DNA of 64,000 bases from Pumilibacter muris (GTDB taxonomy: Bacteria; Bacillota; Clostridia; Christensenellales; Pumilibacteraceae): contig NZ_CALPCN010000003.1 of assembly GCF_943193045.1 (NCBI RefSeq), positions 62,001 through 126,000 on the forward strand, written 5' to 3'. Under the pieces are notes generated by a model that searched no databases, was not told where the DNA came from, and worked only from the letters and a program-made list of their open reading frames with translations. The first letter of the stretch is position 1. Each line of letters begins with the position of its first letter. Positions 23,436 to 55,986 of this stretch are shown here, in pieces. Position numbers and translations under genes: made by a program.

Positions 23436-23436
23436 T

Positions 23437-32123: not shown

Positions 32124-32407
32124 TGGCTGACAGCGAAAATAGAGAACAATTACGCCAAGCATATAAAATCGATGATGCACAAGTTGAAAAGCGGTTTATT
32201 CCCGCAAAAGAAAAGGTAAGTCTGACGGAAGACGGCCGTCCTATGCGCGTATGCGCCTACTGCCGGGTTTCGACGGATAATGACGAGCAGGTGTCGTCGA
32301 TAGTTTTGCAGCAAGAGCATTATAGCTATTTGGCGAGTACATACAAGAATTGGGATCTTAAGAGAATATATGCGGACGAGTACATTCATTATGGGGAACA
32401 AAAATAA
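32123..32407 (+). pseudogene. 5' fragment of a large serine recombinase split by a 25.6-kb insertion
   Basis: The first 84 codons encode the start of a serine recombinase, including the nucleophile segment VCAYCRVSTDND (Ser at about residue 50) and YADE. From 32375 the sequence switches to the inserted element: after D-E, 11 unrelated codons lead to a TAA. The rest of the gene resumes in the same frame at 57941 (DEGISGTSLKRRDKF). The fragment lacks most of the catalytic domain and all of the DNA-binding part, so it is inactive unless the insert excises. Confidence 0.9.
32372..32400. other. Left attachment site (attL-type) of the nested element
   Basis: Target sequence of the split recombinase up to 32374, crossover dinucleotide GA at 32375-32376, then element DNA with the arm TATGGGGAACA at 32390-32400. 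This arm is the exact reverse complement of TGTTCCCCATA at the right end. Joining both ends rebuilds one symmetric site centred on GA. Confidence 0.8.
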
Positions 32408-32492
32408 CATATAAGAAACCAAAGCAATTTTTCACTTAAAATTACAATTTAGTATCCATGAAAATATTAAAAACAAATTTGCGTCTAATGTA

Positions 32493-32521
32493 TTGACATT
32501 GGGCGCATATTTTGCTATAAT
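32493..32521 (+). promoter_or_regulatory. Sigma-A promoter of the toxin-antitoxin operon
   Basis: TTGACA (32493-32498), 17-base spacer, TATAAT (32516-32521): both boxes perfect. An imperfect inverted repeat (GCGTCTAATGT with ACATTGGGCGC) overlaps the -35, consistent with antitoxin autoregulation. Confidence 0.85.
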
Positions 32522-32549
32522 GACAATATACTATAAATGGAGGGCTATT

Positions 32550-32843
32550 ATGAAGGCAAATATGAATATAAAAGTTGATACGGACGTAAGAGATGCGGCA
32601 AAGAGTATATTCGGGCAAATGGGTTTGGATATGACGACTGCGGTCAATATGTTTTTGCTTGCGGCAATAAGAGAAAAGGGTATACCATTTGAACTTACCA
32701 CGGTTTCGAAAGCAAGCGATGACGAAATAATCGAATTACTTGCAAGGAAACTCCGTAATGCCGAGGCGCAGGAGAAAGCGGGACAAATGAGAAATTTCGA
32801 TGATTTTGCTGCGGAGATGAAATCCAAGTATGGAAGAGTGTAA
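32550..32843 (+). CDS. RelB/DinJ-type antitoxin
   Basis: A 97-aa antitoxin. N-terminal ribbon-helix-helix (MNIKVDTDVRDAAKSIFG, then LDMTTAVNMFLLAAI) that binds DNA as a dimer, followed by a C-terminal helix that would wrap the toxin. ATG 32550 has GGAGGG upstream and lies just after the consensus promoter. It overlaps the toxin gene by 14 bases, the usual coupling. Confidence 0.88.
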   Translation: MKANMNIKVDTDVRDAAKSIFGQMGLDMTTAVNMFLLAAIREKGIPFELTTVSKASDDEIIELLARKLRNAEAQEKAGQMRNFDDFAAEMKSKYGRV

Positions 32844-33165
32844 ATACAAAAGAGTCATCTTGCCGCAAGCGGAGCAAGACATTGAAGAGGCATTAAACTA
32901 TATATCTAACGAATTATGCAATCCCGATGCGGCAAACAAATTGATTGATAATATGGTAGAAATAATGGAAAACGTTTCAATGTTTCCTTATTCGCTCCCG
33001 ACGCTTAAGGATAAAAGATTGGCGCAGGGTAACGAATATCGTCGTGCCGATGTGAATAATTTTGTGCTAATTTATAAAGTTGCGGAAGATGTGCGGGAAG
33101 TGCGTGTAATGGCAGCGTTATATGCGCCGTCCGACGTTGTAGCGCGATTGCTGAAAAGGCTCTAA
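32830..33165 (+). CDS. RelE/ParE-type toxin
   Basis: A 111-aa toxin of the RelE/ParE superfamily: ILPQAEQDIEEALNYI helix, then NEYRRADVNNFVLIYKV and VREVRVMAALY strands. Sequence alone does not tell an mRNA interferase from a gyrase poison; ParE-like features (long N-terminal helix pair) seem slightly favoured. Near the left end of the nested element, it would favour retention of that element. Confidence 0.82.
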   Translation: MEECKYKRVILPQAEQDIEEALNYISNELCNPDAANKLIDNMVEIMENVSMFPYSLPTLKDKRLAQGNEYRRADVNNFVLIYKVAEDVREVRVMAALYAPSDVVARLLKRL

Positions 33166-33242
33166 ATCGATTGAGTACAAAAGATTCGGTGATTGTTGCA
33201 ACATTACCGATTTGTAATTAAAATTGAATATTAAAATATGGG

Positions 33243-33278
33243 AAGCCGTAAGTCATTAAATGACCTGCGGCTTTTTTT
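33243..33278 (+). terminator. Rho-independent terminator after the toxin gene
   Basis: Imperfect 15-base stem (AAGCCG...CGGCTT) and a run of seven T. Confidence 0.75.
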
Positions 33279-33349
33279 GCATTTCCGAGATTAAAGAAAA
33301 TCCGAATTTATATTAAAATTATTATAGTCTACGATAGGAGATAAACTTT

Positions 33350-34303
33350 ATGCAATACAAAGAATGGTTAAACGAATGGCTTGAATGTTATGTTAAGCCG
33401 ACAACGAAAAGCAAGACGTATATAAGATATTCGGAAATTGTACGCGGACATATTATTCCGAAAATCGGCAGTTATGAAATAGGCGAATTGACGCCACTCG
33501 TTTTGCAAAGATTCGTTACCGAATTATTAAGCGGCGGGAATTTGAAAACCGGAACGGGACTTTCGTCCAATTCGGTAAACGGAATTATTACCGTTATTCA
33601 AAATTCGCTAAAATCGGCATTTGCGATCGGGATTGTTCCCGAGTATAATGCGGATAAAATCAAACGTCCAAAAGTAAAAGAAAAGCAAGTCGTTTGCTTT
33701 ACGAAGCAAGAACAGCGGCAGATTGAACAAGCGATATTAGACGGGTACAAAAGCAAATTATACGGTGTTATATTATGTCTTTATACGGGACTTCGAATAG
33801 GAGAATTGCTTGCGCTCGAATGGTCGGACGTGGATTTACAAAAAGGGATCATATCGGTAAATAAGACGCGACACGACGGAAAGGGGAATAGCGTGAATTC
33901 GCCCAAAACGGAGACTTCGCGCAGAATGATTCCCATACCCAAACAGTTGTTGCCGTTTATGAAGGAATGGAAAAAGAATAGCCTGTCGCGGTTTGTTGTA
34001 TCGAATGGCGAAAAGTATATATCCGTGCGTGGGTATCAGAGAATGTTTGAAAGGCTTTTGAATCGGATTGGCATAGAGCATAAAGGTTTTCACGCTTTGC
34101 GCCATACATTTGCTACGCGGGCACTTGAGTGCGGAATGGACGTGAAAACGCTGTCGGAAATTCTCGGACATAAGAACGCGACGGTTACGTTAAACCGTTA
34201 TGTACATAGTCTTGTTGAGCATAAACAAGAGATGATGAATGTGTTGGGTAAATTGATTTATGCAACGCAAAGTAAATCGAGAGTAACGATTGGCGAAATA
34301 TAA
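33350..34303 (+). CDS. Tyrosine recombinase, probable promoter invertase
   Basis: A 317-aa tyrosine recombinase. An N-terminal SAM-like core-binding domain is followed by the catalytic domain with all expected residues: Arg in TGLRIGELLALEW, Lys in SPKTETSRRMIPI, HxxR in HALRHTFATR, His in LGHKN and the Tyr nucleophile in LNRYVHSL. AGGAGAT precedes the ATG. The element already has a serine recombinase at its right end for transposition. This enzyme lies directly beside a segment with inverted core-like sites (34304-34480), so inversion of that segment is its most likely job. Confidence 0.88.
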   Translation: MQYKEWLNEWLECYVKPTTKSKTYIRYSEIVRGHIIPKIGSYEIGELTPLVLQRFVTELLSGGNLKTGTGLSSNSVNGIITVIQNSLKSAFAIGIVPEYNADKIKRPKVKEKQVVCFTKQEQRQIEQAILDGYKSKLYGVILCLYTGLRIGELLALEWSDVDLQKGIISVNKTRHDGKGNSVNSPKTETSRRMIPIPKQLLPFMKEWKKNSLSRFVVSNGEKYISVRGYQRMFERLLNRIGIEHKGFHALRHTFATRALECGMDVKTLSEILGHKNATVTLNRYVHSLVEHKQEMMNVLGKLIYATQSKSRVTIGEI

Positions 34304-34324
34304 AATGTGCGCCTAATAAAATAA

Positions 34325-34358
34325 TAGGCGGTCGTTTTCTTGCCGTAACGACCGCCTA
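34325..34358 (-). terminator. Leftward terminator-like hairpin inside the invertible segment
   Basis: Twelve-base perfect stem TAGGCGGTCGTT with AACGACCGCCTA. The T-rich tail (TATTATTTTATTAGG) lies on the left side, so it acts on leftward transcription now and would stop rightward transcription if the segment were inverted. Confidence 0.6.
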
Positions 34359-34413
34359 AAAGAACGTATTTGAACTTTATTGCAAAAATTTTTCCGTGAA
34401 TGCCTATTATCTA

Positions 34414-34442
34414 TTGATTTTTGAGTCATAATAAGGTATAAT
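34414..34442 (+). promoter_or_regulatory. Rightward sigma-A promoter inside the invertible segment
   Basis: TTGATT at 34414-34419, exactly 17 bases, TATAAT at 34437-34442. It is the only good promoter seen before the helicase and capsule genes. Confidence 0.75.
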
Positions 34443-34628
34443 AATACCGTGAATGTGCGCCTATTATTTTATTAGGTGGATGTTTGCGAGTGTGTTTTGT
34501 ACACCTATTATGAACCCGTGCGGAGCGTTCGTAGGCAAGGACTCGACGCAAAACGCGGCGGATATATCGGATATGCTTTCGTCCAAGACCTTGTGCGAAA
34601 CGGCGAAGCATACCATTTTTATTTGATT

Positions 34629-37613
34629 ATGATAGATTTATTCCCACACAACTTAACAGCCTACGAATCGGCGGTCGAAATGTTAGCCGAAACGGGCAAA
34701 GCGGCGATTATCCATCCCACGGGGTCGGGTAAGTCTTTTATTGCCTTTAAGTTGTGCGAGGATAACGAAGATAAGCGCGTACTGTGGCTTTCTCCGTCCG
34801 AATACATTTTCAAAACGCAAGTCGAAAATCTGAAAGCTGTGTCGAATGGCTATTGTCCGAATAATATTATATTCTATACCTATGCGAAACTCATGTATAT
34901 GGGAGCAGACGAGATTGCCGAGATAAAACCCGATTATATCGTTCTCGACGAGTTTCATCGTTGCGGCGCAGAAGTGTGGGGAAAAGGCGTTCAGAATGTA
35001 TTAAGCGCATATCCGAATATTCCCGTGCTCGGACTTTCGGCGACCAATATCCGCTATCTCGACAACCAACGCGATATGGCAGACGAGCTGTTTGACGGCA
35101 ATATGGCGAGCGAAATGACGCTCGGCGAAGCAATCGTGCGCGGTATACTCAATCCACCTAAGTATGTGCTTTCGGTGTTCCAATATCAAAAGGATTTGGA
35201 TAAGTACGCCTATCGTGTTCGCCACGCAAAAAACAAGGCGGTGCGCGACAGCGGCGAGAAATATCTCGAAGCGTTACGCAGAGCTTTGGATAAAGCGGAC
35301 GGACTTCCCGAGATATTCAACAAGCATATCCCGAATCAAAACGGCAAGTATATCGTGTTTTGCGCGAACGTCGAGCATATGGACGAAATGGTGTCGCACG
35401 TGCAGGAGTGGTTCGGCGGCATAGACAGCGAGCTGCACGTTTACAAGGCGTATGCCGACGATCCCGAAACGAGCAAAGCGTTTGCCAATTTCAAGAAAGA
35501 CGACAGCACTCACCTCAAATTGCTTTTCTGTATAGATATGCTCAATGAGGGCGTTCACGTCGAGGACGTAAGCGGCGTTATTTTGCTTCGTCCGACCGTA
35601 TCGCCCATTATTTATAAGCAACAAATCGGACGCGCTCTGTCGGCAAGCAAAACGACGAATGCCGTTATTTTCGATGTTGTGATGAATATAGACAATTTGT
35701 ATTCTATCGGCACAATTCAAGACGAAATGCAAGTTGTTATGACGTACTACCGCGAGCGCGGACTTGAAAGCGAGATAGTCAACAGCTCGTTTAAAGTTGT
35801 GGACGAGGTGCGCGACTGCATTGAACTGTTTGAAAAGCTCAACGATACGCTTGTCGCGTCGTGGGACTATATGTTCGCCGAGGCGAAAAAGTATTATGAA
35901 CAACACGGCAATCTCGAAGCGCCGACAAAGTACAAGACCGAGCAAGGGTATTCGCTCGGGCATTGGCTTGCCACGCAGAGAAAAGTGCGGCGCGGCGAGC
36001 AGTTCGGAATACTCGGCGAGGATAGGATAGCAAAGCTCGATAGTATCGGCATGGTTTGGGATGGCTATAAAGACTTGTCTTGGAAGAAGAACTATGCTGC
36101 AGCGAAAGCGTATTATGCCGAATACGGCGATTTAAGAATTCCTGCCACATATACGACAGAAGCGGGTATCAAACTCGGCGCTTGGATAACGAATTTGCGC
36201 AATTATAGGAAAAACGGCGCACAAACCAATTATTTGACCGAAGAACGCATTGCCGCGCTTGACGAGATAGGCATGGTGTGGGATGTCCCGGATATGTTAT
36301 GGGAGCGCAACTACGCCGCCGCGAGAGATTATTATGCAGAGCATGGCAATCTCGACGTGCCTATAAGTTATGTTACGAGCGATGGAATTAAGCTCGGAAT
36401 CATACTTTGCAATCTTCGCAATGCCTATCGCGGAACCAATAAATCATATAAGCTCACGCAGGCGCAAATCGACGCATTAAACGAAATCGGCATAATATGG
36501 ACGCCACGTTTCGACAGAGCGTGGGAGAAAGGATACGCTTATTTGCAAGCGTATTATGAGGAAAACGGTAATGCCGACGTACCGACGACGTATGTTACGA
36601 ATGACGGATATAGGCTTGGCGCATGGGTATGCGACCAAAGAGAACGTGTTGACAAGATAACAGATGAGCGTAAAGCGCGGCTTGACAGTTTGGGGTTTGT
36701 TTGGAATAAAGAAAAGTCGTGGGATAAAGCGTTTGCCGTTGCGTTGGATTTTTATACAGAATACGGGCATTTGAATGTACCGTATTCGTATAGAGTAAAC
36801 GGTATATGGCTCAACAAATGGCTCAATGAACAGAAACAGATTTATAACGGAAATCGCGGGACAAGAATGCTTGACCACGAACAGATTGTAAAACTCGAAT
36901 CGATAGGAATATGTTGGGAACTCGGCAGTAAAAGAAGAATCGACGCGGCATGGGAAGAAATGTATGCGGAAGCCGAGAGGTTTTATGCCGAAAATAAGCA
37001 TTTGAATATTCCGGGCGAGTATAGAACGGTAAGCGGGAAGAAATTGCAAATATGGATTACCCGTCAGCGAAAAGCATATAAAAGCGGCGAACTCACGCAA
37101 GTGCAGATACAAAAACTCGAAACGATCGGCATGGTTTGGCAGTTCGACGATCCGTGGGAAATCGGTTTTTCTCATGCGAAGGAGTATGCCGTTAAATATG
37201 GCGATTTGCTTTTGCCTATAAGTTATGTTTGCGACGATGGTTATAAACTCGGCAATTGGATTGCCAATCAACGAAACAATAAAGACAGCGATGATAAGTA
37301 TAGACGGTTGAGTGTGGAACAGATTGAGCACCTTGATTCTATCGGTATGGTGTGGGATGTCGCTGAGTATGCTTGGACGAGAGGATATGAACAGGTATTG
37401 CGTTATTGGCAAGAAAACGGGCATATCCGTGTTCCGCGCGGAACGAGAATAAACGGTGTCGATTTGCAGTCTTGGGTTTGCGAGCAACGAAAGAGTTTTA
37501 AGAAAGGAAAACTTTCGCAAGAGAAGATTTTGAAGTTGGTTGCTATCGGCGTGATCGTTTTACCCGATGTGCGTATAGAAAACAGAAGCAGAAAGGCGGT
37601 GGCGAGCGTATGA
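34629..37613 (+). CDS. DEAD/DEAH-type helicase with eight helicase-associated repeats
   Basis: A 994-aa protein. The first about 420 residues are an SF2 helicase core: Walker A HPTGSGKS near residue 30, DEFH box in YIVLDEFHRCG, LGLSATN (motif III-like) and QQIGRALSAS (motif VI). Then come eight about 70-residue repeats with the helicase-associated domain pattern (W...Y..A..YY.E.G.L.VP..Y....G..LG.W...QR), the first at about 440 and the last at about 925. ATG 34629 begins at the conserved part; the frame opens further up at 34476 but that stretch resembles no known domain. No strong ribosome site is seen. First gene of the capsule operon, overlapping the next gene (ATGA). Confidence 0.85.
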   Translation: MIDLFPHNLTAYESAVEMLAETGKAAIIHPTGSGKSFIAFKLCEDNEDKRVLWLSPSEYIFKTQVENLKAVSNGYCPNNIIFYTYAKLMYMGADEIAEIKPDYIVLDEFHRCGAEVWGKGVQNVLSAYPNIPVLGLSATNIRYLDNQRDMADELFDGNMASEMTLGEAIVRGILNPPKYVLSVFQYQKDLDKYAYRVRHAKNKAVRDSGEKYLEALRRALDKADGLPEIFNKHIPNQNGKYIVFCANVEHMDEMVSHVQEWFGGIDSELHVYKAYADDPETSKAFANFKKDDSTHLKLLFCIDMLNEGVHVEDVSGVILLRPTVSPIIYKQQIGRALSASKTTNAVIFDVVMNIDNLYSIGTIQDEMQVVMTYYRERGLESEIVNSSFKVVDEVRDCIELFEKLNDTLVASWDYMFAEAKKYYEQHGNLEAPTKYKTEQGYSLGHWLATQRKVRRGEQFGILGEDRIAKLDSIGMVWDGYKDLSWKKNYAAAKAYYAEYGDLRIPATYTTEAGIKLGAWITNLRNYRKNGAQTNYLTEERIAALDEIGMVWDVPDMLWERNYAAARDYYAEHGNLDVPISYVTSDGIKLGIILCNLRNAYRGTNKSYKLTQAQIDALNEIGIIWTPRFDRAWEKGYAYLQAYYEENGNADVPTTYVTNDGYRLGAWVCDQRERVDKITDERKARLDSLGFVWNKEKSWDKAFAVALDFYTEYGHLNVPYSYRVNGIWLNKWLNEQKQIYNGNRGTRMLDHEQIVKLESIGICWELGSKRRIDAAWEEMYAEAERFYAENKHLNIPGEYRTVSGKKLQIWITRQRKAYKSGELTQVQIQKLETIGMVWQFDDPWEIGFSHAKEYAVKYGDLLLPISYVCDDGYKLGNWIANQRNNKDSDDKYRRLSVEQIEHLDSIGMVWDVAEYAWTRGYEQVLRYWQENGHIRVPRGTRINGVDLQSWVCEQRKSFKKGKLSQEKILKLVAIGVIVLPDVRIENRSRKAVASV

Positions 37614-37885
37614 ATGAAAAACTATTGATTATCGGCGAGTGTACTGCCGAAATAAAAAAGTTACTATTGCAACTGTTTACGGCAGAAACAGAGAGTATTC
37701 AATGTTTTCCTACTGACAACGATTCGTTTATTTGTGTTGCGGAGGGACAAGCAGAAACACAAGAGCAATTAAAATCACTTGGCTACAAAACTGTTACGAT
37801 AGCCTATACCAATGATCTTATAAATAAGATAATCGGCAACAGTGATTTAGAAAAGCACGGGTATAAATTTGAGGACGGTGTGTGA
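37610..37885 (+). CDS. Hypothetical protein between the helicase and aminotransferase
   Basis: A 91-aa soluble alpha/beta protein starting with KLLIIGECTAEIKKLL. It is not recognised; the beginning is reminiscent of a small Rossmann-like or receiver-like strand-helix unit, but no catalytic motif is seen. ATG overlaps the helicase stop (ATGA) and the next start lies two bases after its stop. Confidence 0.55.
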   Translation: MNEKLLIIGECTAEIKKLLLQLFTAETESIQCFPTDNDSFICVAEGQAETQEQLKSLGYKTVTIAYTNDLINKIIGNSDLEKHGYKFEDGV

Positions 37886-37886
37886 T

Positions 37887-39098
37887 ATGAATATTAAATT
37901 TTCGCCACCCGATATATCCGAAAAAGAAATAAAAGAGGTTGCCGAGGCCTTGAGTTCGGGTTGGATAACAACCGGACCGAGAGTAAAGAAACTCGAAAAA
38001 AAGATTGCGGAATATGTAGGAACGCCTAAGTGCGTTTGTCTTAATTCGCAAACGGCTTGTGCCGAAATGGCTTTGCGCGTCCTCGGGATCGGCGAAGGCG
38101 ATGAGGTGATTACATCGGCATATACATACACCGCGTCGGCATCGGTTGTATGTCATGTCGGGGCAAAGCTCATCCTTGTGGATACACAAAAAGACAGTCT
38201 TGAACCGGATTATAAGGCATTGGAAAACGCGATTACCGATCGTACAAAAGCCATTATTCCTATTGATTTGGGTGGAGTGCCTTGCGACTACGACAAGATA
38301 TTCGAGATTGTAAACCGCAAGAATAATCTGTTTGTGCCGAATAACGATATACAAAAAGCAATCGGCAGAGTTGCGGTTTTAGCAGACACCGCCCATGCTT
38401 TCGGCGCGGAATGGCACGGTAAAAAAGTGGGGAGTATTGCCGATTTCTCGTCTTTTAGTTTTCATGCTGTGAAAAATTTTACAACAGGCGAGGGCGGTGC
38501 GCTTACTTGGAAGCATATCGACGGCATTGACGACGAGGCTATTTATAAGCAACTGCAACTGCTGTCGCTTCACGGGCAGAATAAGGACGCGCTTGCAAAG
38601 ACACAGCTCGGCGCGTGGGAGTACGACATTATCGGTACTTGGTATAAGTGCAATATGACCGACGTTGCGGCGGCAATGGGATTGGCGCAGTTCGAGCGTT
38701 ATCCGCAAATGTTAAAGCGGCGGCGCGAAATTATCGAAAAATACGATAAAGCGTTTAAGCCGCTCGGCATAAAGGCTTTGCCGCATTATACGGACGAGCA
38801 TACTTCGTCGGGGCATTTGTATATAACGCGAGTACCGAATATAACAGCCGAACAGCGCAGTGAAATCATCACTCTTATGGCGCAAAAGGGAATCGCTTGT
38901 AACGTGCATTATAAGCCATTGCCTATGCACACGGCATATAAGCAAATGGGGTTCGATATACGAAATTATCCGAATGCTTATGCGCAGTTTGCAAATGAAA
39001 TCACTTTACCGCTACACACTTGTCTTACCGATGTGGAAGTGGATTATATCATCGAAAACTATTGCGAAATCGTTACCGAGTATTTGTATGCTGATTAA
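37887..39098 (+). CDS. DegT/DnrJ/EryC1/StrS-family sugar aminotransferase
   Basis: A 403-aa PLP enzyme that aminates a keto-sugar nucleotide. The PLP-binding Lys lies in FHAVKNFTTGEGG; TSAYTYTASASVV and ADTAHAFGAEW are family motifs. In surface-polysaccharide clusters such enzymes make 4-amino sugars. A matching 4,6-dehydratase was not found in the cluster, so the keto substrate would come from the host. The end overlaps the sugar transferase by 11 bases. Confidence 0.9.
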   Translation: MNIKFSPPDISEKEIKEVAEALSSGWITTGPRVKKLEKKIAEYVGTPKCVCLNSQTACAEMALRVLGIGEGDEVITSAYTYTASASVVCHVGAKLILVDTQKDSLEPDYKALENAITDRTKAIIPIDLGGVPCDYDKIFEIVNRKNNLFVPNNDIQKAIGRVAVLADTAHAFGAEWHGKKVGSIADFSSFSFHAVKNFTTGEGGALTWKHIDGIDDEAIYKQLQLLSLHGQNKDALAKTQLGAWEYDIIGTWYKCNMTDVAAAMGLAQFERYPQMLKRRREIIEKYDKAFKPLGIKALPHYTDEHTSSGHLYITRVPNITAEQRSEIITLMAQKGIACNVHYKPLPMHTAYKQMGFDIRNYPNAYAQFANEITLPLHTCLTDVEVDYIIENYCEIVTEYLYAD

Positions 39099-39774
39099 GA
39101 AATGGAAAAAAATTCCCGAAGAAATGAAGAATGACGCAGTATATCAATATTGGTTAATGCTTCGCAAAAAGAATTTTTCGTTGTTTTGGAAGCGCGTGTT
39201 TGACATTGTAGTGTCGTTATTGATGCTGATACTTTTGTCGCCGTTGTATTTGATTCTCGCGATAGCGATTAAGTGCGATTCGAAAGGACCCGTGTTTTAT
39301 AGGCAAGAGAGAGTAACGCAGTACGGGTGCAGATTCCGTATTCATAAGTTCAGAACGATGTATGTGCATGATGAAACGGGCAATGACGTTACTGTAGCGA
39401 ACGACGATAGAATAACAAGGCTTGGACGCAAAATCAGACACCTAAGATTGGATGAAACCGCACAAATTTTTGATGTATTCTTGGGTTCTATGACATTCGT
39501 AGGCACACGCCCGGAAGTGCCGAAATATGTGGAGCAGTATACCGACGAAATGAAAGCAACTTTACTGCTTCCCGCAGGGGTTACGAGTCTTGCAAGCATT
39601 AAGTATAAGGACGAAGATAAGTTGCTCGAAAATGCCGAAAACACCGATGAAACGTATGTAAACGAGGTGCTTCCCGGCAAGATGGAATATAACTTACGGG
39701 CTTTACGCAAATACGGCTTTTGGCGAGATATAGGCACAATGTTTCAAACCGTAGGTGCGGTGCTAAAGAGGTAG
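39088..39774 (+). CDS. Initiating sugar-1-phosphate transferase (PglC/WcaJ-like)
   Basis: A 228-aa membrane enzyme that starts polysaccharide repeat synthesis by moving a sugar phosphate to undecaprenyl phosphate. One hydrophobic membrane segment (VSLLMLILLSPLYLILAIAI, about residues 40-59) precedes the catalytic domain with FYRQERVTQYG, FRIHKFRTM and DETAQIFDV. Length and plan fit the short PglC-type family. Confidence 0.92.
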   Translation: MLIKKWKKIPEEMKNDAVYQYWLMLRKKNFSLFWKRVFDIVVSLLMLILLSPLYLILAIAIKCDSKGPVFYRQERVTQYGCRFRIHKFRTMYVHDETGNDVTVANDDRITRLGRKIRHLRLDETAQIFDVFLGSMTFVGTRPEVPKYVEQYTDEMKATLLLPAGVTSLASIKYKDEDKLLENAENTDETYVNEVLPGKMEYNLRALRKYGFWRDIGTMFQTVGAVLKR

Positions 39775-39777
39775 AGA

Positions 39778-40560
39778 ATGTACGGAAAAGTTTCAATCAT
39801 AATGCCCAATTATAATTGCGAAAAGTTTATCGAAGAAACGATAAGCTCTGTTTTGGCGCAAACTTATGAGAATTGGGAATTGTTGATAGTTGACGATTGT
39901 TCAACGGACAGTTCGGTGGAAATAATAAAGAATTACTGCAAAAATGACGATAGAATTAAGTTGTTTATCAATGAAAGAAACAGCGGTGCGGCGTCTTCCC
40001 GAAATTGGGCGTTGCGGGAAGCAACAGGTAAATGGATAGCATTTCTTGACAGTGATGATATATGGTTTCCCGAAAAACTTGAAAAACAACTCGCTTTTAT
40101 GGTTGAAAATGGGTACAAATTTACGTTTACAAAATATAAGCAGATCGATGAACAATCTCAACCGTTAGGAAAGGTAGTTATAGGACCGCCAAAAATCTCA
40201 AAAAGGAAGATGAAGTATTGTTGTTGTTATTTGGGCTGTTTGACGGTTATGTATGATGCTGAAACGGTGGGGGTTATTCAAATCGATGAGTCTATTAGAA
40301 AACGCAATGACGATGCTATGTGGTTAAAAGTTCGTAAGTTTGCCGATGCATATTATCTTGACGAGTTGTTAGCGGCATATAGAGTTAGAAAAGGCTCTAT
40401 CTCACATCAAGGCAAATGGAGTCTTGTGAAATATCATTATAAATTATATCGCATCGGGGATAACAGAAATCCGATAAGTGCGTTTTTTTGTATGATAAAA
40501 AATATCGCAAAAGTGTTCAAGAAAAAGAAGAAGTACGTAATAAACGAGGGAGTAAAATGA
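39778..40560 (+). CDS. Glycosyltransferase family 2
   Basis: A 260-aa GT-A fold transferase: VSIIMPNYNCEKFIEETI, LLIVDDCSTDSSV, then the metal-binding DSD in IAFLDSDDIWFPEK. It adds a sugar to the growing lipid-linked repeat; specificity cannot be read. A basic C-terminus follows (KKKKKY). It overlaps the next gene start by four bases. Confidence 0.9.
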   Translation: MYGKVSIIMPNYNCEKFIEETISSVLAQTYENWELLIVDDCSTDSSVEIIKNYCKNDDRIKLFINERNSGAASSRNWALREATGKWIAFLDSDDIWFPEKLEKQLAFMVENGYKFTFTKYKQIDEQSQPLGKVVIGPPKISKRKMKYCCCYLGCLTVMYDAETVGVIQIDESIRKRNDDAMWLKVRKFADAYYLDELLAAYRVRKGSISHQGKWSLVKYHYKLYRIGDNRNPISAFFCMIKNIAKVFKKKKKYVINEGVK

Positions 40561-41762
40561 TAAAAATAGCTGTCGCTGGAACGGGCTACGTGGGATTGGC
40601 AAATGCAATATTACTATCGCAACATAATGAAGTAGTAGCAGTTGATATTGTTCCCGAAAAAGTAGAAAAAATAAACAATAAGATTTCCCCAATTGCTGAT
40701 AAAGAAATTGAGGAATATTTGACCGCAAAAAATTTGCATTTAACGGCAACTACCGATGCCGAGTCGGCTTATCGCGATGCCGAATTCGTCATTATAAGTA
40801 CGCCTACAAATTATGATGACGAGAAAAACTATTTTGATACAAGTTCCGTAGAAAATGCTATAGAAACTGTGCTTGCCGTCAATCGCAATGCAACAATTGT
40901 AATTAAATCTACGATTCCCGTCGGCTATACGGAAAGTATAATCGCAAAATATAAATACAATAAAATCTTGTTTTCGCCCGAGTTTTTGAGAGAGGGAAAA
41001 GCTCTTTATGACAATTTGTATCCGTCGAGAATTATTGTGGGCAGTCCACAAGGCGTAGATGACATGAAAACACAAGCAGAGAAATTTTCACGACTATTAC
41101 AGAAGGGTGCGATTAAACAAGAAATTCCCACATTGATTATGCAAGCGACCGAAGCCGAAGCTGTGAAGTTATTTGCTAATACCTATTTAGCGTTGCGCGT
41201 GTCTTACTTTAATGAATTGGACACCTATGCCGAAATTAAGGGGTTGGACACAAAATCAATTATTGAGGGCATAGGTTATGATCCACGAATAGGCAATTAT
41301 TATAATAATCCATCTTTTGGTTATGGCGGTTATTGCTTGCCTAAAGATACCAAACAGCTTAGGGCGAATTATAAAGATGTGCCGGAGAATTTGATTAGTG
41401 CAATCGTTCAAGCAAACGAAACACGAAAAGATTTTATAGCAAGCGATATAATAAGATTTCTGGAAAGTAAAAAATCCGATAAACCCGTTGTTGGAATTTA
41501 TAGACTTACAATGAAATCTGGTTCTGATAATTTTAGGCAGAGTGCCATACAAGGAATAATAGAAAGGTTGTTAAAGTGTAGCATAACGGTTTGTATTTAT
41601 GAGCCAACGCTTTCATCGAGCGTTTATATGAATTGCAGTGTTATAAAAAATATTGATATTTTTAAGTCGGAGTCCACGATAATCGTTACCAATCGGTTTG
41701 AGAATCAGTTAAAAAATGTGGTAGGTAAGATTTATACTAGGGATATTTATAGTAGGGATTAA
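40557..41762 (+). CDS. ugd: UDP-glucose 6-dehydrogenase
   Basis: A 401-aa nucleotide-sugar dehydrogenase that would oxidise UDP-glucose to UDP-glucuronate. N-terminal Rossmann site VAGTGYVGLANA; FSPEFLREGKALYDN substrate segment; catalytic Cys in GGYCLPKDTKQL near residue 265; C-terminal UDP-binding domain. The shape fits UDP-glucose or UDP-ManNAc dehydrogenases; UDP-glucose is preferred from motif similarity. With UDP-ManNAc made nearby, an acidic sugar in the polymer is likely. Confidence 0.88.
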   Translation: MIKIAVAGTGYVGLANAILLSQHNEVVAVDIVPEKVEKINNKISPIADKEIEEYLTAKNLHLTATTDAESAYRDAEFVIISTPTNYDDEKNYFDTSSVENAIETVLAVNRNATIVIKSTIPVGYTESIIAKYKYNKILFSPEFLREGKALYDNLYPSRIIVGSPQGVDDMKTQAEKFSRLLQKGAIKQEIPTLIMQATEAEAVKLFANTYLALRVSYFNELDTYAEIKGLDTKSIIEGIGYDPRIGNYYNNPSFGYGGYCLPKDTKQLRANYKDVPENLISAIVQANETRKDFIASDIIRFLESKKSDKPVVGIYRLTMKSGSDNFRQSAIQGIIERLLKCSITVCIYEPTLSSSVYMNCSVIKNIDIFKSESTIIVTNRFENQLKNVVGKIYTRDIYSRD

Positions 41763-41856
41763 ATATTGAAAACTCAATTATTATTTCCATCTAGAATAAT
41801 TCTGTTATTCAAAAATAAAGTATTAAGTATAACTAAAAATGGAGTGAAGATTATAA

Positions 41857-42939
41857 GTGAAGGTATTGGTGTTGGCAACCGATTATCCGGATAATAACGG
41901 TAAAGTTTCTCTGATGTATATTCATACAAGAAATTTAGCTTATATTAAAAACGGGTATGAAGTGGTTGTTTTGAATTTTTCGGCAGAAGTCGGATATTTG
42001 AAAGACGGTATACGCGTAATAACTTTTCAAGAGTACAAGCAGAATATAGAGCCTGCCGATATTTTGTTGTGTCATGCTGCAAATTTGAGAAATCATTACA
42101 AGTTTTTAAAAAAATATCAAAAGTTATATGAGTCAATTGTGTTTTTCTATCATGGACACGAGGTTTTGAAAATCAATAAAGTATATTCCAAACCTTATTT
42201 CTATAAAAAGGAAAACGGATTTAAAGTTGTATTGAGAAATTGGTACGATTCTTTTAAGTTGCATGTTTGGCGAAAGTATTTGCCAAAAATTATGCATAAA
42301 AGTAAGTTGATATTCGTTTCGAACTGGATGAAAAATGAGTTTGAAAAATGGGTTTTTCCTTTGAAAGATTATTCAAACAGAGTATTTATTACGTATAATT
42401 GCGTTGGTAAAGAATTTGAGACATTACAGTTCGATTCGAAGAAAGATAAAGAATACGATTTTATAACTGTACGTTCGTTCTTAGACGGTTCGAAATATGC
42501 GGTAGACTTAGTAATTAAGATAGCTTCTAAATATCCACAGTACAAATTTTGCGTAATCGGTCGCGGAGAAATATTTAAGTATTTCGGTAAACCGGATAAT
42601 ATTACTTGGATTGATCGATATATGAGCCATGATGATATTTTGGCACAGTTGAATAATGCAAAGTTTGCTTTAATGCCGACCAGAACAGATGCGCAAGGTT
42701 TAATGGCTTGTGAAATGGCTACATTTGGAATGCCGCTAATAACCTCTACGATTCCGGTGTGTTATGAGATTTTTGATTCTTTCAAAAATGTTGCTTATAT
42801 AGATAATGACAGTGAATTCGAGAATTTTGATCAACTGATTAATAATTTGTCTGCGGTAAAAGAAAAAAACACTAAATACTTTGAATGTAATACAATAGCA
42901 AACGAATTGCAAATTTTCGAGCGGGAGATACAGGAATGA
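41857..42939 (+). CDS. Glycosyltransferase family 4-like
   Basis: A 360-aa GT-B fold transferase. GTG start preceded by GGAGTGAAG. The C-terminal half shows IGRGEIFKYFGKPDNITW and ALMPTRTDAQGLMACEMATFG, the E-x7-E type nucleotide-sugar site of GT4 enzymes. AT-rich relative to neighbours, as are the next several genes. Nothing is recognised in the 94-base gap before it. Confidence 0.85.
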   Translation: MKVLVLATDYPDNNGKVSLMYIHTRNLAYIKNGYEVVVLNFSAEVGYLKDGIRVITFQEYKQNIEPADILLCHAANLRNHYKFLKKYQKLYESIVFFYHGHEVLKINKVYSKPYFYKKENGFKVVLRNWYDSFKLHVWRKYLPKIMHKSKLIFVSNWMKNEFEKWVFPLKDYSNRVFITYNCVGKEFETLQFDSKKDKEYDFITVRSFLDGSKYAVDLVIKIASKYPQYKFCVIGRGEIFKYFGKPDNITWIDRYMSHDDILAQLNNAKFALMPTRTDAQGLMACEMATFGMPLITSTIPVCYEIFDSFKNVAYIDNDSEFENFDQLINNLSAVKEKNTKYFECNTIANELQIFEREIQE

Positions 42940-44033
42940 AGAAAGTAATGTTAGTATTCGGGACTCGTCCGGAGGCAATAAAAATGTGTCCGCTTGTCAA
43001 CGAATTAAAAAAAAGGGAAAATATAGAAACGGTAGTTTGTGTTACGGGACAACATAGACAAATGCTTGATCAAGTATTGCAGGCGTTTAATGTTATTCCC
43101 GATTATGACCTTAGTATAATGAAGGATAAGCAAACTTTGTTTGACATTACTACTAACATTATGAACTCAATAAAAACAGTTTTGGAAGAAGCCCAACCGG
43201 ATGTTGTATTGGTGCATGGGGATACGTCCACAACTTTTGTAACTGCATTGGCGTGTTATTATTTACGGATTCCGGTCGGACATGTTGAAGCAGGATTGCG
43301 CACATATAACATATACAGCCCTTATCCAGAAGAATTTAATAGACAAGCGGTATCTATAATAAGCAGCTATAATTTTGCGCCTACGGAACTGTCCCGACAA
43401 AATCTTATTAGAGAGGGACATAAAGAAGAGAGTATATATGTGACCGGAAATACTGCTATTGATGCACTCAAAACTACAGTGCGAAAAGATTATGTTCATT
43501 CTGAATTGGAGTGGGCATCGGATAGTAGGCTTATTATGATTACGGCGCATAGACGTGAAAACTTGGGACAACCCATGCACAATATGTTTCGTGCGATTCG
43601 TAAAGTTATGGAAGAATATAGCGACACAAAAGCTATATACCCTATACACATGAATCCTGTTGTGCGCAAGGCTGCCGAAGAAGAATTGGGTGATTTTGAC
43701 AGAATTCATATAATAGAACCATTGGATGTGTTGGATTTCCATAATTTCTTGGCTAAGTCATATTTGATTCTTACAGATAGCGGCGGCATACAAGAAGAAG
43801 CCCCGTCATTGGGCAAGCCGGTTTTGGTAATGCGAGATACTACCGAGCGTCCCGAGGGTATAGAAGCGGGTACATTAAAGTTAGTGGGGACAATGGAAGA
43901 TGTTATTTATAATAATTTCAGCCGTCTTTTATCGGATGAACATGAATATCAAAAGATGGCGCATGCAAGTAATCCTTATGGAGATGGTTTAGCTTCTAAA
44001 CGTATTGCTGATATTTTATCTCAAAAAGTGTGA
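42936..44033 (+). CDS. wecB: UDP-N-acetylglucosamine 2-epimerase
   Basis: A 365-aa enzyme interconverting UDP-GlcNAc and UDP-ManNAc. Motifs: FGTRPEAIKMCPLV at the N-terminus, HGDTSTTF, GHVEAGLRTYNIYSPYPEE and TDSGGIQEEAPSLGKP, all hallmarks of WecB/MnaA. Overlaps the previous gene by four bases. Confidence 0.95.
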   Translation: MKKVMLVFGTRPEAIKMCPLVNELKKRENIETVVCVTGQHRQMLDQVLQAFNVIPDYDLSIMKDKQTLFDITTNIMNSIKTVLEEAQPDVVLVHGDTSTTFVTALACYYLRIPVGHVEAGLRTYNIYSPYPEEFNRQAVSIISSYNFAPTELSRQNLIREGHKEESIYVTGNTAIDALKTTVRKDYVHSELEWASDSRLIMITAHRRENLGQPMHNMFRAIRKVMEEYSDTKAIYPIHMNPVVRKAAEEELGDFDRIHIIEPLDVLDFHNFLAKSYLILTDSGGIQEEAPSLGKPVLVMRDTTERPEGIEAGTLKLVGTMEDVIYNNFSRLLSDEHEYQKMAHASNPYGDGLASKRIADILSQKV

Positions 44034-44105
44034 TAAGTTTACGATAAATTAAATTTATACTAATTTATTTGTTAATGTGAAAAGTAAGGTAACTATTACT
44101 AATAA

Positions 44106-45191
44106 ATGATGATTTATTTTTGTTTGGTAATATGGCTTCTTATAATTGGAAAGATTTGTTTTCCTAATTATAGAAAATGTTATTCTAAAGCAACGCGTAA
44201 GAGTTTTATAGTGTTGTTCTTTTTTGCTTGTGCAATTTTAAGCGGTTTTAGGTGTTTGCATGTTGGAGTAGATACAATAAATTATAAACATCAATTTGAC
44301 TTGGTTGCCGCCTCATCTTGGAGCGATATATTTAGTTCATTCTATTTTAATAGCATGGAAATCGGTTACGTGCTATTCATGAAATTATGTTCAACAATAT
44401 TTAATAATTATATTATTTTTCAAGTAATAGAATCAGTTATTTTTTTGTGCCTATTTGGAAGATTTATTATAGATAGTACGAATCATGTGTTTTTAGCGTG
44501 TTGCGTGTTTTTGGGTATAGGTATTTTTTTGGATTTTATGAACGTAACTCGACAAGTGTTTGCTGTTGCTGTAGTAATCAATGGACTATGTGATTTAAGG
44601 AAAAAACACGCTATAAGAGCATTTATAGTGTTGATTATTGCAGTTACTATTCAAATTAGTTCAGCAGTATTTTTAATATCATACATCTTGTATTTTTTGA
44701 GAAATAAGAATTTAATAATGAAATTACTTCCATTGTGTAGCATATTTGTGCTCGTTTTTTCCGAATTATTTGTAAATATAGTAATCGCATTTTTTCCTAA
44801 ATATGAGAATTATCTTATGAGAAATTCAATCAACCAGTCAGCGCATTTTATTATTTTGGTATGGTTGATTATTGTTTTTATGGCACTGTTGACCATTTAT
44901 GGACGAAAGAAAGCGAATCCTTTTAGTAATGTAATTGCTTTATTTTGTATTTTTTACGTGATATGTAATTGTTTGGGATTTAAATATAATTATTTTGAGA
45001 GAGTTGGTTTGTATTTTGTTCCGTTTGTTTTATTGCTCTTGCCAGAATTTGTAGCAAGAATAAAAAATAAACGATTAAAGGACGCTATAAACTTTTGTAT
45101 GGTCTTTGGATTTACTATGCTTTTTTTAATTAGTTCAACTGGTTCAAAGCAATATCAGAATTACCATTTATTAGGTGGAGATGATTTATGA
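44106..45191 (+). CDS. wzy: Polysaccharide polymerase (Wzy/EpsG-like), multi-pass membrane protein
   Basis: A 361-aa protein with about ten to eleven hydrophobic segments throughout, an early SGFRCLHVGVDTINYKHQF stretch and NVTRQVFAVAVVIN. This is the pattern of EpsG-type polymerases (R...G.DT.NY). It would link repeat units outside the membrane. Strongly AT-rich. Stop overlaps the next start (ATGA). Confidence 0.85.
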   Translation: MMIYFCLVIWLLIIGKICFPNYRKCYSKATRKSFIVLFFFACAILSGFRCLHVGVDTINYKHQFDLVAASSWSDIFSSFYFNSMEIGYVLFMKLCSTIFNNYIIFQVIESVIFLCLFGRFIIDSTNHVFLACCVFLGIGIFLDFMNVTRQVFAVAVVINGLCDLRKKHAIRAFIVLIIAVTIQISSAVFLISYILYFLRNKNLIMKLLPLCSIFVLVFSELFVNIVIAFFPKYENYLMRNSINQSAHFIILVWLIIVFMALLTIYGRKKANPFSNVIALFCIFYVICNCLGFKYNYFERVGLYFVPFVLLLLPEFVARIKNKRLKDAINFCMVFGFTMLFLISSTGSKQYQNYHLLGGDDL

Positions 45192-46171
45192 GTTTAGTAT
45201 CTATAATAGTTCCTATATACAATGTTGAAAGGTATATTAATGATTGTGTTAAAAGCCTACTAAAGCAAACTTACAATAATATTGAGATTATATTGGTAGA
45301 TGATGGATCTACTGATATGTCGGGTATGATATGTGACAACTTAAAATCGAACGATAATAGGATTAAAGTAATTCACAAACGGAATGGGGGCTTATCTGAT
45401 GCGCGGAATGAAGGGATAAACATTGCATCTGGCAAGTATTTAACATTTATTGATAGTGATGATGTGGTTGAAATTGACTTTGTGGAATATTTATATAATC
45501 TTTTAATCGAAAATGATGCTGAAATGTCGGTGTGTCATTATAGAAAAATAGATGAGCAAGGAAACATTATAAGCGAGACTATAAAAGATAATGATGAGCT
45601 TGTAATAGGAAATAATTCTTGCATGGAGAAGTTTTTTAAAGGCAATGATATAGGTACCGTAGCGTGGGGCAAGCTCTATAAAACAGAATTGTTTAGAAAA
45701 ATAAGATATCCCGTGGGTAAATATCATGAGGATGTATTTACGACTTATAAAGTTGTTGCTCTATGCGACAAAATAGCAATCGGGGCAAAGGCGAAATATT
45801 TATATCGACTAAGGCATAACAGTATTGTGAATCAAGAATTTTCTCTTAAACACTTGGATGCAGTGGAGGCTAATATTGAACGATCGCAATTTATACTTGC
45901 GACATATCCAAAATTGTATGATTACGCTTGTGCTGGAATAATATATGCCGCAAATCAATGTGTGATGAAATTGATACAAACCAAAAAAAATTATCCAATA
46001 CAAGTGTCATATTTAAAATGTCAATATAAAAATTATAGTAAATATTATCTCAAAATAACCCACAGTAAATTAAAAAAATTATTTGTAAGATTTGCTAAAC
46101 TAAATCTTTCACTATTCATAAAGATATGTAAACCATTTAGAGGCTTTTTAAATGAATATAAAGGTAGATAA
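45188..46171 (+). CDS. Glycosyltransferase family 2
   Basis: A 327-aa GT-A transferase with VSIIVPIYNVERYINDCV, IILVDDGSTDMSGM and FIDSDDVVEIDF (DSD metal site), followed by GTVAWGKLYKTELF and YHEDVFTTYK, typical of EpsJ-type transferases. Basic C-terminus. It overlaps the next gene by 20 bases. Confidence 0.92.
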   Translation: MSLVSIIVPIYNVERYINDCVKSLLKQTYNNIEIILVDDGSTDMSGMICDNLKSNDNRIKVIHKRNGGLSDARNEGINIASGKYLTFIDSDDVVEIDFVEYLYNLLIENDAEMSVCHYRKIDEQGNIISETIKDNDELVIGNNSCMEKFFKGNDIGTVAWGKLYKTELFRKIRYPVGKYHEDVFTTYKVVALCDKIAIGAKAKYLYRLRHNSIVNQEFSLKHLDAVEANIERSQFILATYPKLYDYACAGIIYAANQCVMKLIQTKKNYPIQVSYLKCQYKNYSKYYLKITHSKLKKLFVRFAKLNLSLFIKICKPFRGFLNEYKGR

Positions 46172-47969
46172 TATATTTGTAGACTATTTTGATACAATAG
46201 CTTTCCGAAACATTCATCCGGATAAAACAAAAGAACTGTGGGCGCAAAGAATGGCGCGTGCAGTTGACTATTCTGTATTGCCCGACCAACTTTTGAAATA
46301 TCGTTTATCGTCCGAAAAAATGCTGGCGATGTGGGTAGAAAACGGGCAGTATTCATATAATGAGTTAATGCAGTCTATATATAACAAGATAGAAAGACAT
46401 ACGCACGGCTACGCAATCACTAAAGATGAATTTATAAATATTGCAAAAAATATTGAGGAAGAAATTGAATGTGAAAGTCAGTATCCGAATATAAAAATCA
46501 TTGATTTTTTGCGACAAGCAAAATTATCCGGTAAGCGCGTATATCTTGTGTCGGATTTTTATTTGGGTAAGGATTCATATAGTAAATTTTTTGAAAAACT
46601 TGGTATTAATGATTTATTCGATAAAATCTATATTTCGTGTGATTGCAAAGCAAGCAAAGCAAACGGTTCATTATATCGGTTTATTATGGAGCAAGAAACA
46701 ATTGCTGCATATGACATAATTATGATAGGCGACACAAAAAGCTCCGATTATCTTGTCCCCAAACAAATGGGCATATCAGTAAAATACATTCCGAATAAAC
46801 AACAAAAGAAAATGTATAAAAATCAAGTTAAGCAGAGCAATAAAAAAAGAGCAATACGAATTTCCAATAAGAGATCTTCGTGGAGCAACTACTCTTACTC
46901 GTTATATTTGTTCTGCGATAGATTATATGTAGAGTGTAAGCAAAAGAATGTAAATAAACTCTTTTTTTTGGCGAGGGAAGGCAAATTTTTAAAATTACTT
47001 TTTGACCGATATTTACAAACTAAGAAGGATGGTATTTCGACCGCATATTTATATGTTTCGCGTAATTCTACATTTATAGCTTCTATGCAAGATTTGAGTG
47101 CAGAAACTTTTGATGTGCTCTTTCGACAATATAATAAGTTTTCCATTAGATCATTTTTGAAAGCGTTATGCTTTACCGATAGCGAAATTGAGACTATATC
47201 TTGCGATAATAAAGATGAAATAATAATAGATTTTCAAAAGAGTTCGACTTTTGAAAAATTGAAATCCGATGATACATTCTGTGATATATATGACAGGAAA
47301 CGAATGGAGCAGAAAAACAATTTTATTAAGCATTTGAAAAATGTCGGGTATAGTGAAGGAGATAATATAAATATAGTTGATGTTGGTTGGAAAGGCTCAA
47401 TGCAAGACAACATACACAGAATAATGGGACATGGTATATCAATAAACGGTTATTATTTGGGGCTTGTCGGACAAGGAAATTTATCATCCGATAACGATAA
47501 AATAGGGTTACTGTTCGATTGGGCAACAAACCGTTCGATTGCTCATTCAGACGTTTATTTATATGAATATATTTTGTATGAGATGATTTTATCGGCGGAT
47601 CACGGAAAGACAATAGGGTATGACGATAACGGACAACCTATCATTAAAGACGATGAAGATGTGCAGGCTTATAAGCGGTATGTGGGTAAAATTCAAAATG
47701 GCATATTAAAGAAATTTAGCGAAATATGCAAGCTATATGACGGCGATATTTTGATAAATAACGATATTAACATATTTGAAAAAATTCATTTGAGGCTTTT
47801 CAAACACATGTCGTTTAATGAAATAAACACATGGTATAATTTGTTGGTGTTACACCGTGATAGCTTTTTGGGCTTGAATTGTAATGAGTATTCACGAATT
47901 TCTTTTTTAATAAAGAAGAAAGTTAAACCTTATATAAGATTGAAACAATACGTGTTGCGGAGTATATGA
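46152..47969 (+). CDS. HAD-like protein fused to an uncharacterised C-terminal domain, in the capsule cluster
   Basis: A 605-aa protein. The first about 220 residues are a HAD fold: nucleophile motif VDYFDTIAF, VSDFYLGKDSY (motif II), KASKANGSLY (motif III Lys) and MIGDTKSSD (motif IV). The last about 370 residues, with FLAREGKFLKLLFDRYL and NIVDVGWKGSMQDN, occur in polysaccharide loci after HAD domains but have no agreed function that I know of. Possibly it modifies the polymer or its lipid carrier; left unnamed. Confidence 0.7.
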   Translation: MNIKVDNIFVDYFDTIAFRNIHPDKTKELWAQRMARAVDYSVLPDQLLKYRLSSEKMLAMWVENGQYSYNELMQSIYNKIERHTHGYAITKDEFINIAKNIEEEIECESQYPNIKIIDFLRQAKLSGKRVYLVSDFYLGKDSYSKFFEKLGINDLFDKIYISCDCKASKANGSLYRFIMEQETIAAYDIIMIGDTKSSDYLVPKQMGISVKYIPNKQQKKMYKNQVKQSNKKRAIRISNKRSSWSNYSYSLYLFCDRLYVECKQKNVNKLFFLAREGKFLKLLFDRYLQTKKDGISTAYLYVSRNSTFIASMQDLSAETFDVLFRQYNKFSIRSFLKALCFTDSEIETISCDNKDEIIIDFQKSSTFEKLKSDDTFCDIYDRKRMEQKNNFIKHLKNVGYSEGDNINIVDVGWKGSMQDNIHRIMGHGISINGYYLGLVGQGNLSSDNDKIGLLFDWATNRSIAHSDVYLYEYILYEMILSADHGKTIGYDDNGQPIIKDDEDVQAYKRYVGKIQNGILKKFSEICKLYDGDILINNDINIFEKIHLRLFKHMSFNEINTWYNLLVLHRDSFLGLNCNEYSRISFLIKKKVKPYIRLKQYVLRSI

Positions 47970-49159
47970 TAATGAAAAAACGAATGTTGATTTGCCATTG
48001 GAATATGGTAATAGGCGGAATAGAGACTGCGCTTATTAATATGTTAAAGCGCATCGATCCCAATCAATTTGAAGTTGATTTGTTATTGGAAGAAAAGCGA
48101 GGAGATTTTCTTGAATTTATTCCTGCTTATGTAAATGTGTTTGATAGTGCTTCTATAGGCTTATTGCACGGTAGCACCAAAAAAGCGTTATTACATGAGC
48201 TTAAACGCTTTAGATTTATTTCTGCCGCAAAGGTATTGTACTATTGGGAAAAAAGAGATTTGCGTCGATTTGATTGTTTTTATCGAAAGGCTAAACATAT
48301 GCAATATGATATTGCAATTAGTTATAGTATGCATTCTCTCGGATTGTTGAGATTTGTCAACGATTACGTCGAAGCTCCGATAAAATTGGTCTTTTTGCAT
48401 GGAGAACCGACTCGTGATAAAACTGATTCTTGTAAATTCTTGATGTTGGACAGGGAAAAATGCTTATATAATTATGATGGTATTTTTGGAGTTTCAAACG
48501 GAATTACAGAGAAATTTACATCATTATATCCTCAGTATGCGGATAAATGCCAAACGATATACAATTTTATGGATGTTGAGCGATATTATGAAAGAGCAGA
48601 CGAGTTCCATTGTGTAGAAATGACACCCGAAAATGTAAATATCCTTTCGGTTGGAAGATTTGCTCAAGAAAAGAATTTTTTAATTATACCATATGTGTGT
48701 GAAGAATTAAATCGTAAAGGAATAAATTACAAGTGGTTTATTATCGGTGACGGTAGCGAACGTGAACAAGCGCAAGCAGAAATAGCTAAGAGAGGATTAC
48801 AGAATAGATTATATTTGTTGGGAGCTAAAAAAAATCCATATCCATACTATAAAGCTTGTGATTTATATTGTCAGACCTCTAAGTCGGAGGCTTATTGTAC
48901 GACTGTAAATGAAGCGCGCATCTTTAATAAACCGATTGTATCGACCATGTTTCCTGGGATAACCGAGCAACTTGCTGATGGACAAGGGGGAATTATAGTA
49001 GAAATCACCCCTCGGGCTATTGCCGAAGGCATTATTAAAATCATTGAGATGAGTGAGCTTGATAAGCAAAATATGCTAAAAAAATCGGCTTACCCTAACG
49101 CGCTTGAAGAAAACGCGGGAAATAAATTTTTTGAAATTATAGGGCAGAAAACTAATTAA
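47966..49159 (+). CDS. Glycosyltransferase family 4
   Basis: A 397-aa GT-B transferase. NMVIGGIETALINML at the N-terminus, VGRFAQEKNFLIIPYV, and the donor site region YLLGAKKNPYPYYKACD then SKSEAYCTTVNEARIFNKPIV. This is a standard GT4 plan. Overlaps the HAD gene by four bases and abuts the flippase gene. Confidence 0.92.
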   Translation: MIMKKRMLICHWNMVIGGIETALINMLKRIDPNQFEVDLLLEEKRGDFLEFIPAYVNVFDSASIGLLHGSTKKALLHELKRFRFISAAKVLYYWEKRDLRRFDCFYRKAKHMQYDIAISYSMHSLGLLRFVNDYVEAPIKLVFLHGEPTRDKTDSCKFLMLDREKCLYNYDGIFGVSNGITEKFTSLYPQYADKCQTIYNFMDVERYYERADEFHCVEMTPENVNILSVGRFAQEKNFLIIPYVCEELNRKGINYKWFIIGDGSEREQAQAEIAKRGLQNRLYLLGAKKNPYPYYKACDLYCQTSKSEAYCTTVNEARIFNKPIVSTMFPGITEQLADGQGGIIVEITPRAIAEGIIKIIEMSELDKQNMLKKSAYPNALEENAGNKFFEIIGQKTN

Positions 49160-50869: not shown

Positions 50870-50897
50870 TGGGTAAGTTATAAGTTCAATAAGTTAC

Positions 50898-50931
50898 ATT
50901 TGCTCTTGAGATAATCAGGAGCAAATTTTTT
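50898..50931 (+). terminator. Terminator of the capsule operon
   Basis: Eight-base stem ATTTGCTC with GAGCAAAT and a T run; separates the capsule operon from the polymerase-like gene. Confidence 0.8.
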
Positions 50932-50964
50932 ATCCGAAACTAAATTAGGTGAGAGCGTCATTGC

Positions 50965-50993
50965 TTGATTAAGCGACAGGTTTATGGTATAAT
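50965..50993 (+). promoter_or_regulatory. Sigma-A promoter giving a probable leaderless mRNA
   Basis: TTGATT at 50965-50970, 17-base spacer, TATAAT at 50988-50993. The ATG of the next gene is at 51000, where transcription should start, so no ribosome site can fit before it. Confidence 0.75.
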
Positions 50994-50999
50994 TTCCTT

Positions 51000-53552: not shown

Positions 53553-53747
53553 AAAATGAGAATGAGCTGATACGAAAGTGGTACTATTTGTGCCACAACC
53601 TGCGGCAATAACTACGTTAAATTACCTAAAACGGCTCAATTTAGGTTGAATTAAGGCTATTTTACAGAAAAAACTGTGGCAATTTGGTACACATAAATAA
53701 TTCTCTAATCGGCGTAATAGGACGCGAACGAACAGAACGCGAATACG

Positions 53748-53776
53748 GCTCGACTGTGAACAACGGTCGGGCTTTT
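53748..53776 (+). terminator. Terminator-like hairpin after the polymerase-like gene
   Basis: Seven-base stem GCTCGAC with GTCGGGC (one G-U) and TTTT. The rest of 53553-53890 has a ribosome-site-like AAGGAGG at 53815-53821 with no ATG after it, and nothing else recognised. Confidence 0.6.
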
Positions 53777-53891
53777 ATATTGCTTGAACAAAGCATATAG
53801 CAAATAGATTTTCAAGGAGGAACAAGCAAACAAAAAACAAGGCGTAGCCGTAAGCCTTAAAATAACGGTAAACGACAATTAAATATTAGAA

Positions 53892-55968: not shown

Positions 55969-55986
55969 AGAAATTTTGGAGGGAAA

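Follow-up and report, generated by a model that had tools for sequence, protein, structure and literature searches.

A putative invertible promoter switch beside a tyrosine recombinase gene, facing a capsule operon on a mobilisable element of Pumilibacter muris

The window, by which we mean the whole 64,000-nucleotide stretch of Pumilibacter muris DNA that was analysed, carries on its forward strand a gene for a tyrosine recombinase of 317 aa (33350..34303), a pair of inverted repeats just beyond the end of that gene, and a gene for a superfamily-2 helicase with eight helicase-associated (HA) domains (34629..37613), which begins with an ATG at 34629 and is the first gene of an operon. The genes that follow on the same strand (37610..50869) encode a DegT aminotransferase, a sugar-phosphate transferase, glycosyltransferases, a UDP-sugar dehydrogenase, a UDP-GlcNAc 2-epimerase, an EpsG-type polymerase, a HAD protein and a weakly matching Wzx-like flippase, and the operon is closed by a predicted intrinsic terminator (50898..50926, forward strand). 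This predicted gene content bears out the original prediction that a capsule (or exopolysaccharide) operon lies downstream. Beyond the operon is a gene for an 850-aa protein (51000-53552), which has its own predicted promoter and no Pfam or NCBIfam match. Farther to the left (6531-25143), the window holds prophage genes for a terminase, a capsid and a tail tape measure protein, as well as a gene (24073-25143) whose product has a major tropism determinant N-terminal domain.

The recombinase, the repeats and the operon all lie on a mobile element of 25.6 kb (32375..57945, forward strand) that is also found in P. intestinalis. The window is 99.97% identical to P. intestinalis over 32366-57960 and 100% identical over 32375-57945, while the flanks differ, and in both genomes the element sits inside a large serine recombinase gene. 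The sequences at its ends (32372-32383 and 57938-57949) place the insertion in the window at a conserved YADEGISGT motif of the interrupted gene; in P. intestinalis a different serine recombinase gene is interrupted at the same motif (YADEGI(S/T)GT across both). Joining the flanks yields open frames of 609 and 558 codons, which are 41.6% identical over 291 residues. Thus, the element appears to target recombinase genes. No unoccupied copy of the insertion motif turned up in the rest of the genome, but the pattern used was a strict one starting with the ambiguity codes YAD, and this result carries little weight. A RelB/ParE-type toxin-antitoxin pair (32493-33165) occupies the left end of the element. 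Toward its right end lie genes for a MobA/VirD2-type relaxase (54337..55485) and a large CcrB/XisF-like serine integrase (56275..57897), both on the forward strand; the latter is probably the integrase of the element. With a relaxase, an integrase and defined ends that share a core (GACGA), the block has the makeup of an integrative and mobilisable element, and the presence in two species of a 25.6-kb block with both proteins agrees with the original prediction of a mobilisable carrier. Judged from its sequence, the element is mobilisable and has moved very recently; we infer the transfer because the identical element sits at different sites in the two species.

The repeats have the properties expected of recombination sites. 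We confirmed two perfect 19-base arms (34312-34330 and 34458-34476) with 127 bp between them, and each arm is the core of a near-palindromic 21-base site (left, 34310..34330; right, 34458..34478; neither assigned to a strand), in keeping with the core-site-like symmetry originally noted for them. The recombinase stop codon does end at 34303, as predicted, but the left site was said to start at the very next base, whereas the repeat starts 8 bases on. The inverted-repeat score of the pair was 19, compared to a best score of 10 at this spacing when the region was shuffled 20 times. The asymmetric centres of the left and right sites match each other in inverted orientation only, so the product of recombination would be an inversion and not a deletion. 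A 12-base direct match (AATGTGCGCCTA) is also common to both sites. We found no further match to the site pattern with up to 3 mismatches in the window (0.1 expected by chance) or with up to 2 mismatches in the 2.29-Mb genome. Outside the right site there is a possible third half-site, GTACACCTA (34499..34507, forward strand), which is possibly an accessory recombinase site; an ortholog of the switch in another genus (L112, described below) has GTTCACCTA at this place.

The gene adjoining these repeats, as next to an inverton, encodes a site-specific recombinase: its reading frame and, by inspection, its catalytic core are intact, with the catalytic residues R...HxLRH...GH...Y present. It consists only of a SAM-like core-binding domain (PF14659) and a catalytic domain of the phage-integrase type (PF00589). 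Since the core-binding domain begins at the N-terminus, the protein lacks an arm-binding domain, as would be expected if it is a simple invertase. Among solved structures the nearest is 6en0, recorded as 'Int protein', which we take to be Tn1549 Int. We considered whether the enzyme might instead serve a mobile element as its integrase, with the repeats acting as attachment sites such as tandem att sites, given that site-specific integrases often adjoin their own att site, that the locus is part of a mobile element and that the two sites have the direct match AATGTGCGCCTA in common. However, the element ends elsewhere, in serine recombinase genes, with a GACGA core and beside its own serine integrase, and we therefore rejected the tyrosine recombinase as its integrator. 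Furthermore, the site is absent from the rest of the genome, the spacers match only when inverted, the enzyme lacks an arm-binding domain, and relatives display inversion and not excision. Thus, we think it very improbable that these repeats are attachment sites, and we treat them below as the sites of an invertible segment.

The segment bounded by the repeats contains a strong predicted promoter, as in known invertons. The best predicted promoter within it is of the sigma-70 type (TTGATT-17-TATAAT; 34414..34442, forward strand), and it faces the operon in the assembled orientation, which we call ON; we found no leftward promoter in the segment comparable to it, in agreement with the original prediction of one good rightward promoter. 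We disregarded a further, weak promoter that lies outside the switch (34484-34511), because it scored at chance level and L112 does not preserve its second hexamer. The segment was also predicted to hold a 12-base hairpin whose T-rich side points left. The 12-bp stem (34325-34336/34347-34358) is present and its T-rich flank, TATTATTTTATT, does lie to the left, but there is no canonical T-run. This hairpin (34325..34358, not assigned to a strand) has a predicted energy of -20 kcal/mol and would resemble a terminator toward the capsule genes only once inverted, since the OFF orientation puts TATTATTTTATT after the hairpin and ahead of the operon. No tool in our terminator scan called it; its 10-base loop exceeds the limit of the scan. 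A relative in the OFF orientation (L053) has a strong hairpin followed by TTTTT at the corresponding place. Given this arrangement in L053 and the position that TATTATTTTATT would take in the OFF state, a role for the hairpin as an insulator in that state is plausible but unproven.

If the repeats belong to a switch worked by the adjacent recombinase, similar repeats might be expected next to related recombinase genes. We assembled 65 relatives including the window's own protein (35-100% identical, mainly from the same family and order) for which the available downstream sequence was long enough, and around each stop codon we took the score of the best inverted repeat with a gap of 70-260 bp. 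Indeed, in 35 of the 65 the stop codon is closely followed by inverted repeats with a score of 14 or more and a spacing of 96-172 bp, while no repeats reached this score in 61 control stretches 500-920 bp downstream or next to other tyrosine recombinases (12, taken from the same genomes or related ones). A comparison of the family with the control stretches gave a Fisher P of 1.8e-13, although this value is indicative only, since the relatives are not mutually independent. Plasmid integrases about 31-36% identical to the recombinase (from R. albus, Bacteroides, Vescimonas and Enterococcus) had no such repeats, and a scan of viral contigs with the recombinase found no relatives. The 30 relatives with no repeat at the threshold count against the reading of the repeats as a switch; loss, relocation or short contigs may lie behind this repeat-less half or so of the family. 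Three relatives beyond the 35 (L057, L075 and L117) have weaker repeats at the right spacing.

Within the family, the sites vary among members, while the spacer is common to both sites of any one switch, and most sites are palindromic. The predicted promoter is found both ways round, facing the downstream gene in some members and, in a larger number, facing back to the recombinase. The first genes after the switches of the relatives include genes for lipoprotein-like, prepilin-like and DNA methylase-like proteins and a NusG paralogue; only the NusG assignment rests on a Pfam match, the others having been made by reading the sequences. One relative (L139) has a helicase similar to that of the window after its switch. 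In another (L058:8318-8977), the site of the switch is nearly that of the window, and the genes after it are a NusG paralogue and an AAA/trypsin-like cluster. Switches apparently lie ahead of DNA methylase-like and prepilin-like genes in L034, L052 and L053 and in L068, L078, L079, L085 and L136, as judged by reading the sequences.

Both orientations of the segment are found at the level of the family, in two pairs of relatives. The first pair consists of a paralog in the window's own genome (L067, on G000:C5) and the corresponding locus of a congeneric species (L066, in G004), which are syntenic and about 92% identical over 9.4 kb. Their inner segments (116 and 119 bp) are identical save for one 3-base unit, but only if one of them is reverse-complemented (alignment score of 113 inverted compared to -1.5 direct), while the flanks stay in register. 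In G004 the promoter is directed at a lipoprotein-like gene (ON), and in the window's genome it points away from that gene (OFF). We note that L067 (G000:C5:120407-120522) is a second switch of the family in this genome, OFF and upstream of the lipoprotein-like gene. In the second pair (L130 and L140), the segments are 92.8% identical over 153 bp when one is inverted, and the flank is 97% identical in register. These pairs also bear on whether the repeats are binding sites for a regulator, or transcription terminators, at which no DNA is inverted. The sites are indeed palindromic, and some left sites in the family (those of L051, L057 and L059) are also terminator-like, but such a role leaves the inversion of the intervening DNA in two pairs of relatives unaccounted for, as it does the strong tie of the repeats to the window's recombinase family alone. 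We give this explanation hardly any credence and retain that of an invertible promoter.

We also compared the known copies of this particular switch, namely those of the window and of P. intestinalis, which are two identical copies, and the ortholog L112, whose recombinase is 67% identical to that of the window. L112 keeps the promoter block of the window (TTATCTATTGnTTTTT...CATAATAnnGTATAAT) and has an ortholog of the helicase downstream of the switch. Its repeats are 21 bp long and differ from those of the window, yet they are perfect inverted copies of each other, which implies continuing exchange or selection. Moreover, its hairpin stem is preserved through a paired, compensatory change of C to T and G to A. 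All of these copies are in the ON orientation, which counts against the switch reading. We searched the DNA of the genus for the exact switch in inverted form; apart from the identical copy of P. intestinalis, which is ON, this returned only a homologous promoter block in G004 (L095; G004:C6:30779-30820), which stands upstream of a DegT-like gene with no inverted repeats and thus suggests a fixed relative of the switch promoter. It might be argued from the three ON copies and from this fixed promoter that a former invertible switch is now locked ON in the element. We consider this improbable, since the two arms still match perfectly, the recombinase retains an intact frame and both repeats of the ortholog have changed in concert.

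Taken together, the layout in 35 of 65 relatives, the inversion in two pairs and the conservation in L112 support the original prediction of an invertible promoter worked by a tyrosine recombinase, and 34312-34476 is, on the strength of these comparisons, very probably such a switch, with the adjacent gene encoding its proposed cognate invertase. We suggest that the recombinase would bind the palindromic arms of both sites and exchange strands across their asymmetric spacers. In the ON orientation, the promoter would drive the helicase and the capsule operon. In the OFF orientation, it would be directed back at the 3' end of the recombinase gene, and read-through into the operon would be impeded by the hairpin and the T-rich tail that follows it. 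As the unit travels on a mobilisable element, it could confer phase-variable capsule expression on its host. For the window locus itself, we infer the inversion, the activity of the recombinase in vivo, the effect on transcription and the terminator role. More tentatively, with a confidence somewhat short of even, we suggest that the family represents undescribed, widespread and self-contained switch cassettes (a tyrosine recombinase and a 3'-adjacent invertible promoter) of Pumilibacteraceae and related Clostridia, which have moved among unrelated cargoes (capsule, lipoproteins, pilin-like proteins, restriction-modification and helicases), and in part of which a terminator silences read-through only when OFF.

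Many natural switches of about 150 bp, all paired with recombinases of their own, are available in the family for comparing the specificity of spacers and the bias between ON and OFF. P. intestinalis CLA-AA-M10 is an isolate of the host genus that would allow a test of flipping. In our search of the literature on such switches, we found no description of the window's recombinase family or its lineage.

The arrangement resembles several known systems. In E. coli, the promoter segment fimS is inverted by the tyrosine recombinases FimB and FimE, which are encoded nearby (a system outlined in PMC7446863), and the window similarly has a promoter-bearing segment close to a tyrosine recombinase gene. 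However, the window recombinase is of a different subfamily: against the models for tyrosine-type DNA invertases it scored far under the cut-offs (34 bits for NF007371, cut-off 222; 26 bits for NF007370, cut-off 221) and so it is not placed in the FimB/FimE family. In Clostridioides difficile, RecV works switches at cwpV and at flg, the latter of 154 bp (PMC7446863), and these have in common with the window a tyrosine recombinase, inverted repeats, a segment of about 150 bp and a host among the Clostridia. In contrast, a single RecV serves several switches, and the flg switch is located in a 5' leader under the control of Rho (PMC7446863). In the window's family, every switch comes with an adjacent recombinase gene and carries the promoter. 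Gut invertons near tyrosine recombinases and mobilisation genes have also been described, including in Clostridia (PMC11892184). Like the window, these groups have a tyrosine-type recombinase nearby, and some are near relaxase or MobC genes, but they come from a defined human community (PMC11892184).

The Bacteroidales provide a further parallel, with invertible promoters of glycan-synthesis and resistance loci on integrative conjugative elements, served by local invertases (PMC8748976). As in the window, these loci combine a local invertase, short inverted repeats, a promoter facing glycan genes and a mobile carrier. They differ in belonging to another host phylum (PMC8748976) and possibly in their recombinase family; furthermore, unlike these loci, the window has a mobilisable element with a serine integrase and a helicase as the first gene. 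Thus, the type of switch is already known, and what the window adds is an example in a lineage of Clostridia that has a recombinase family of its own. The phase-variable control of capsules through inverted promoters, familiar from Bacteroidales, would thereby extend to a little-studied family of Clostridia, on an element that appears to have passed between species very recently.
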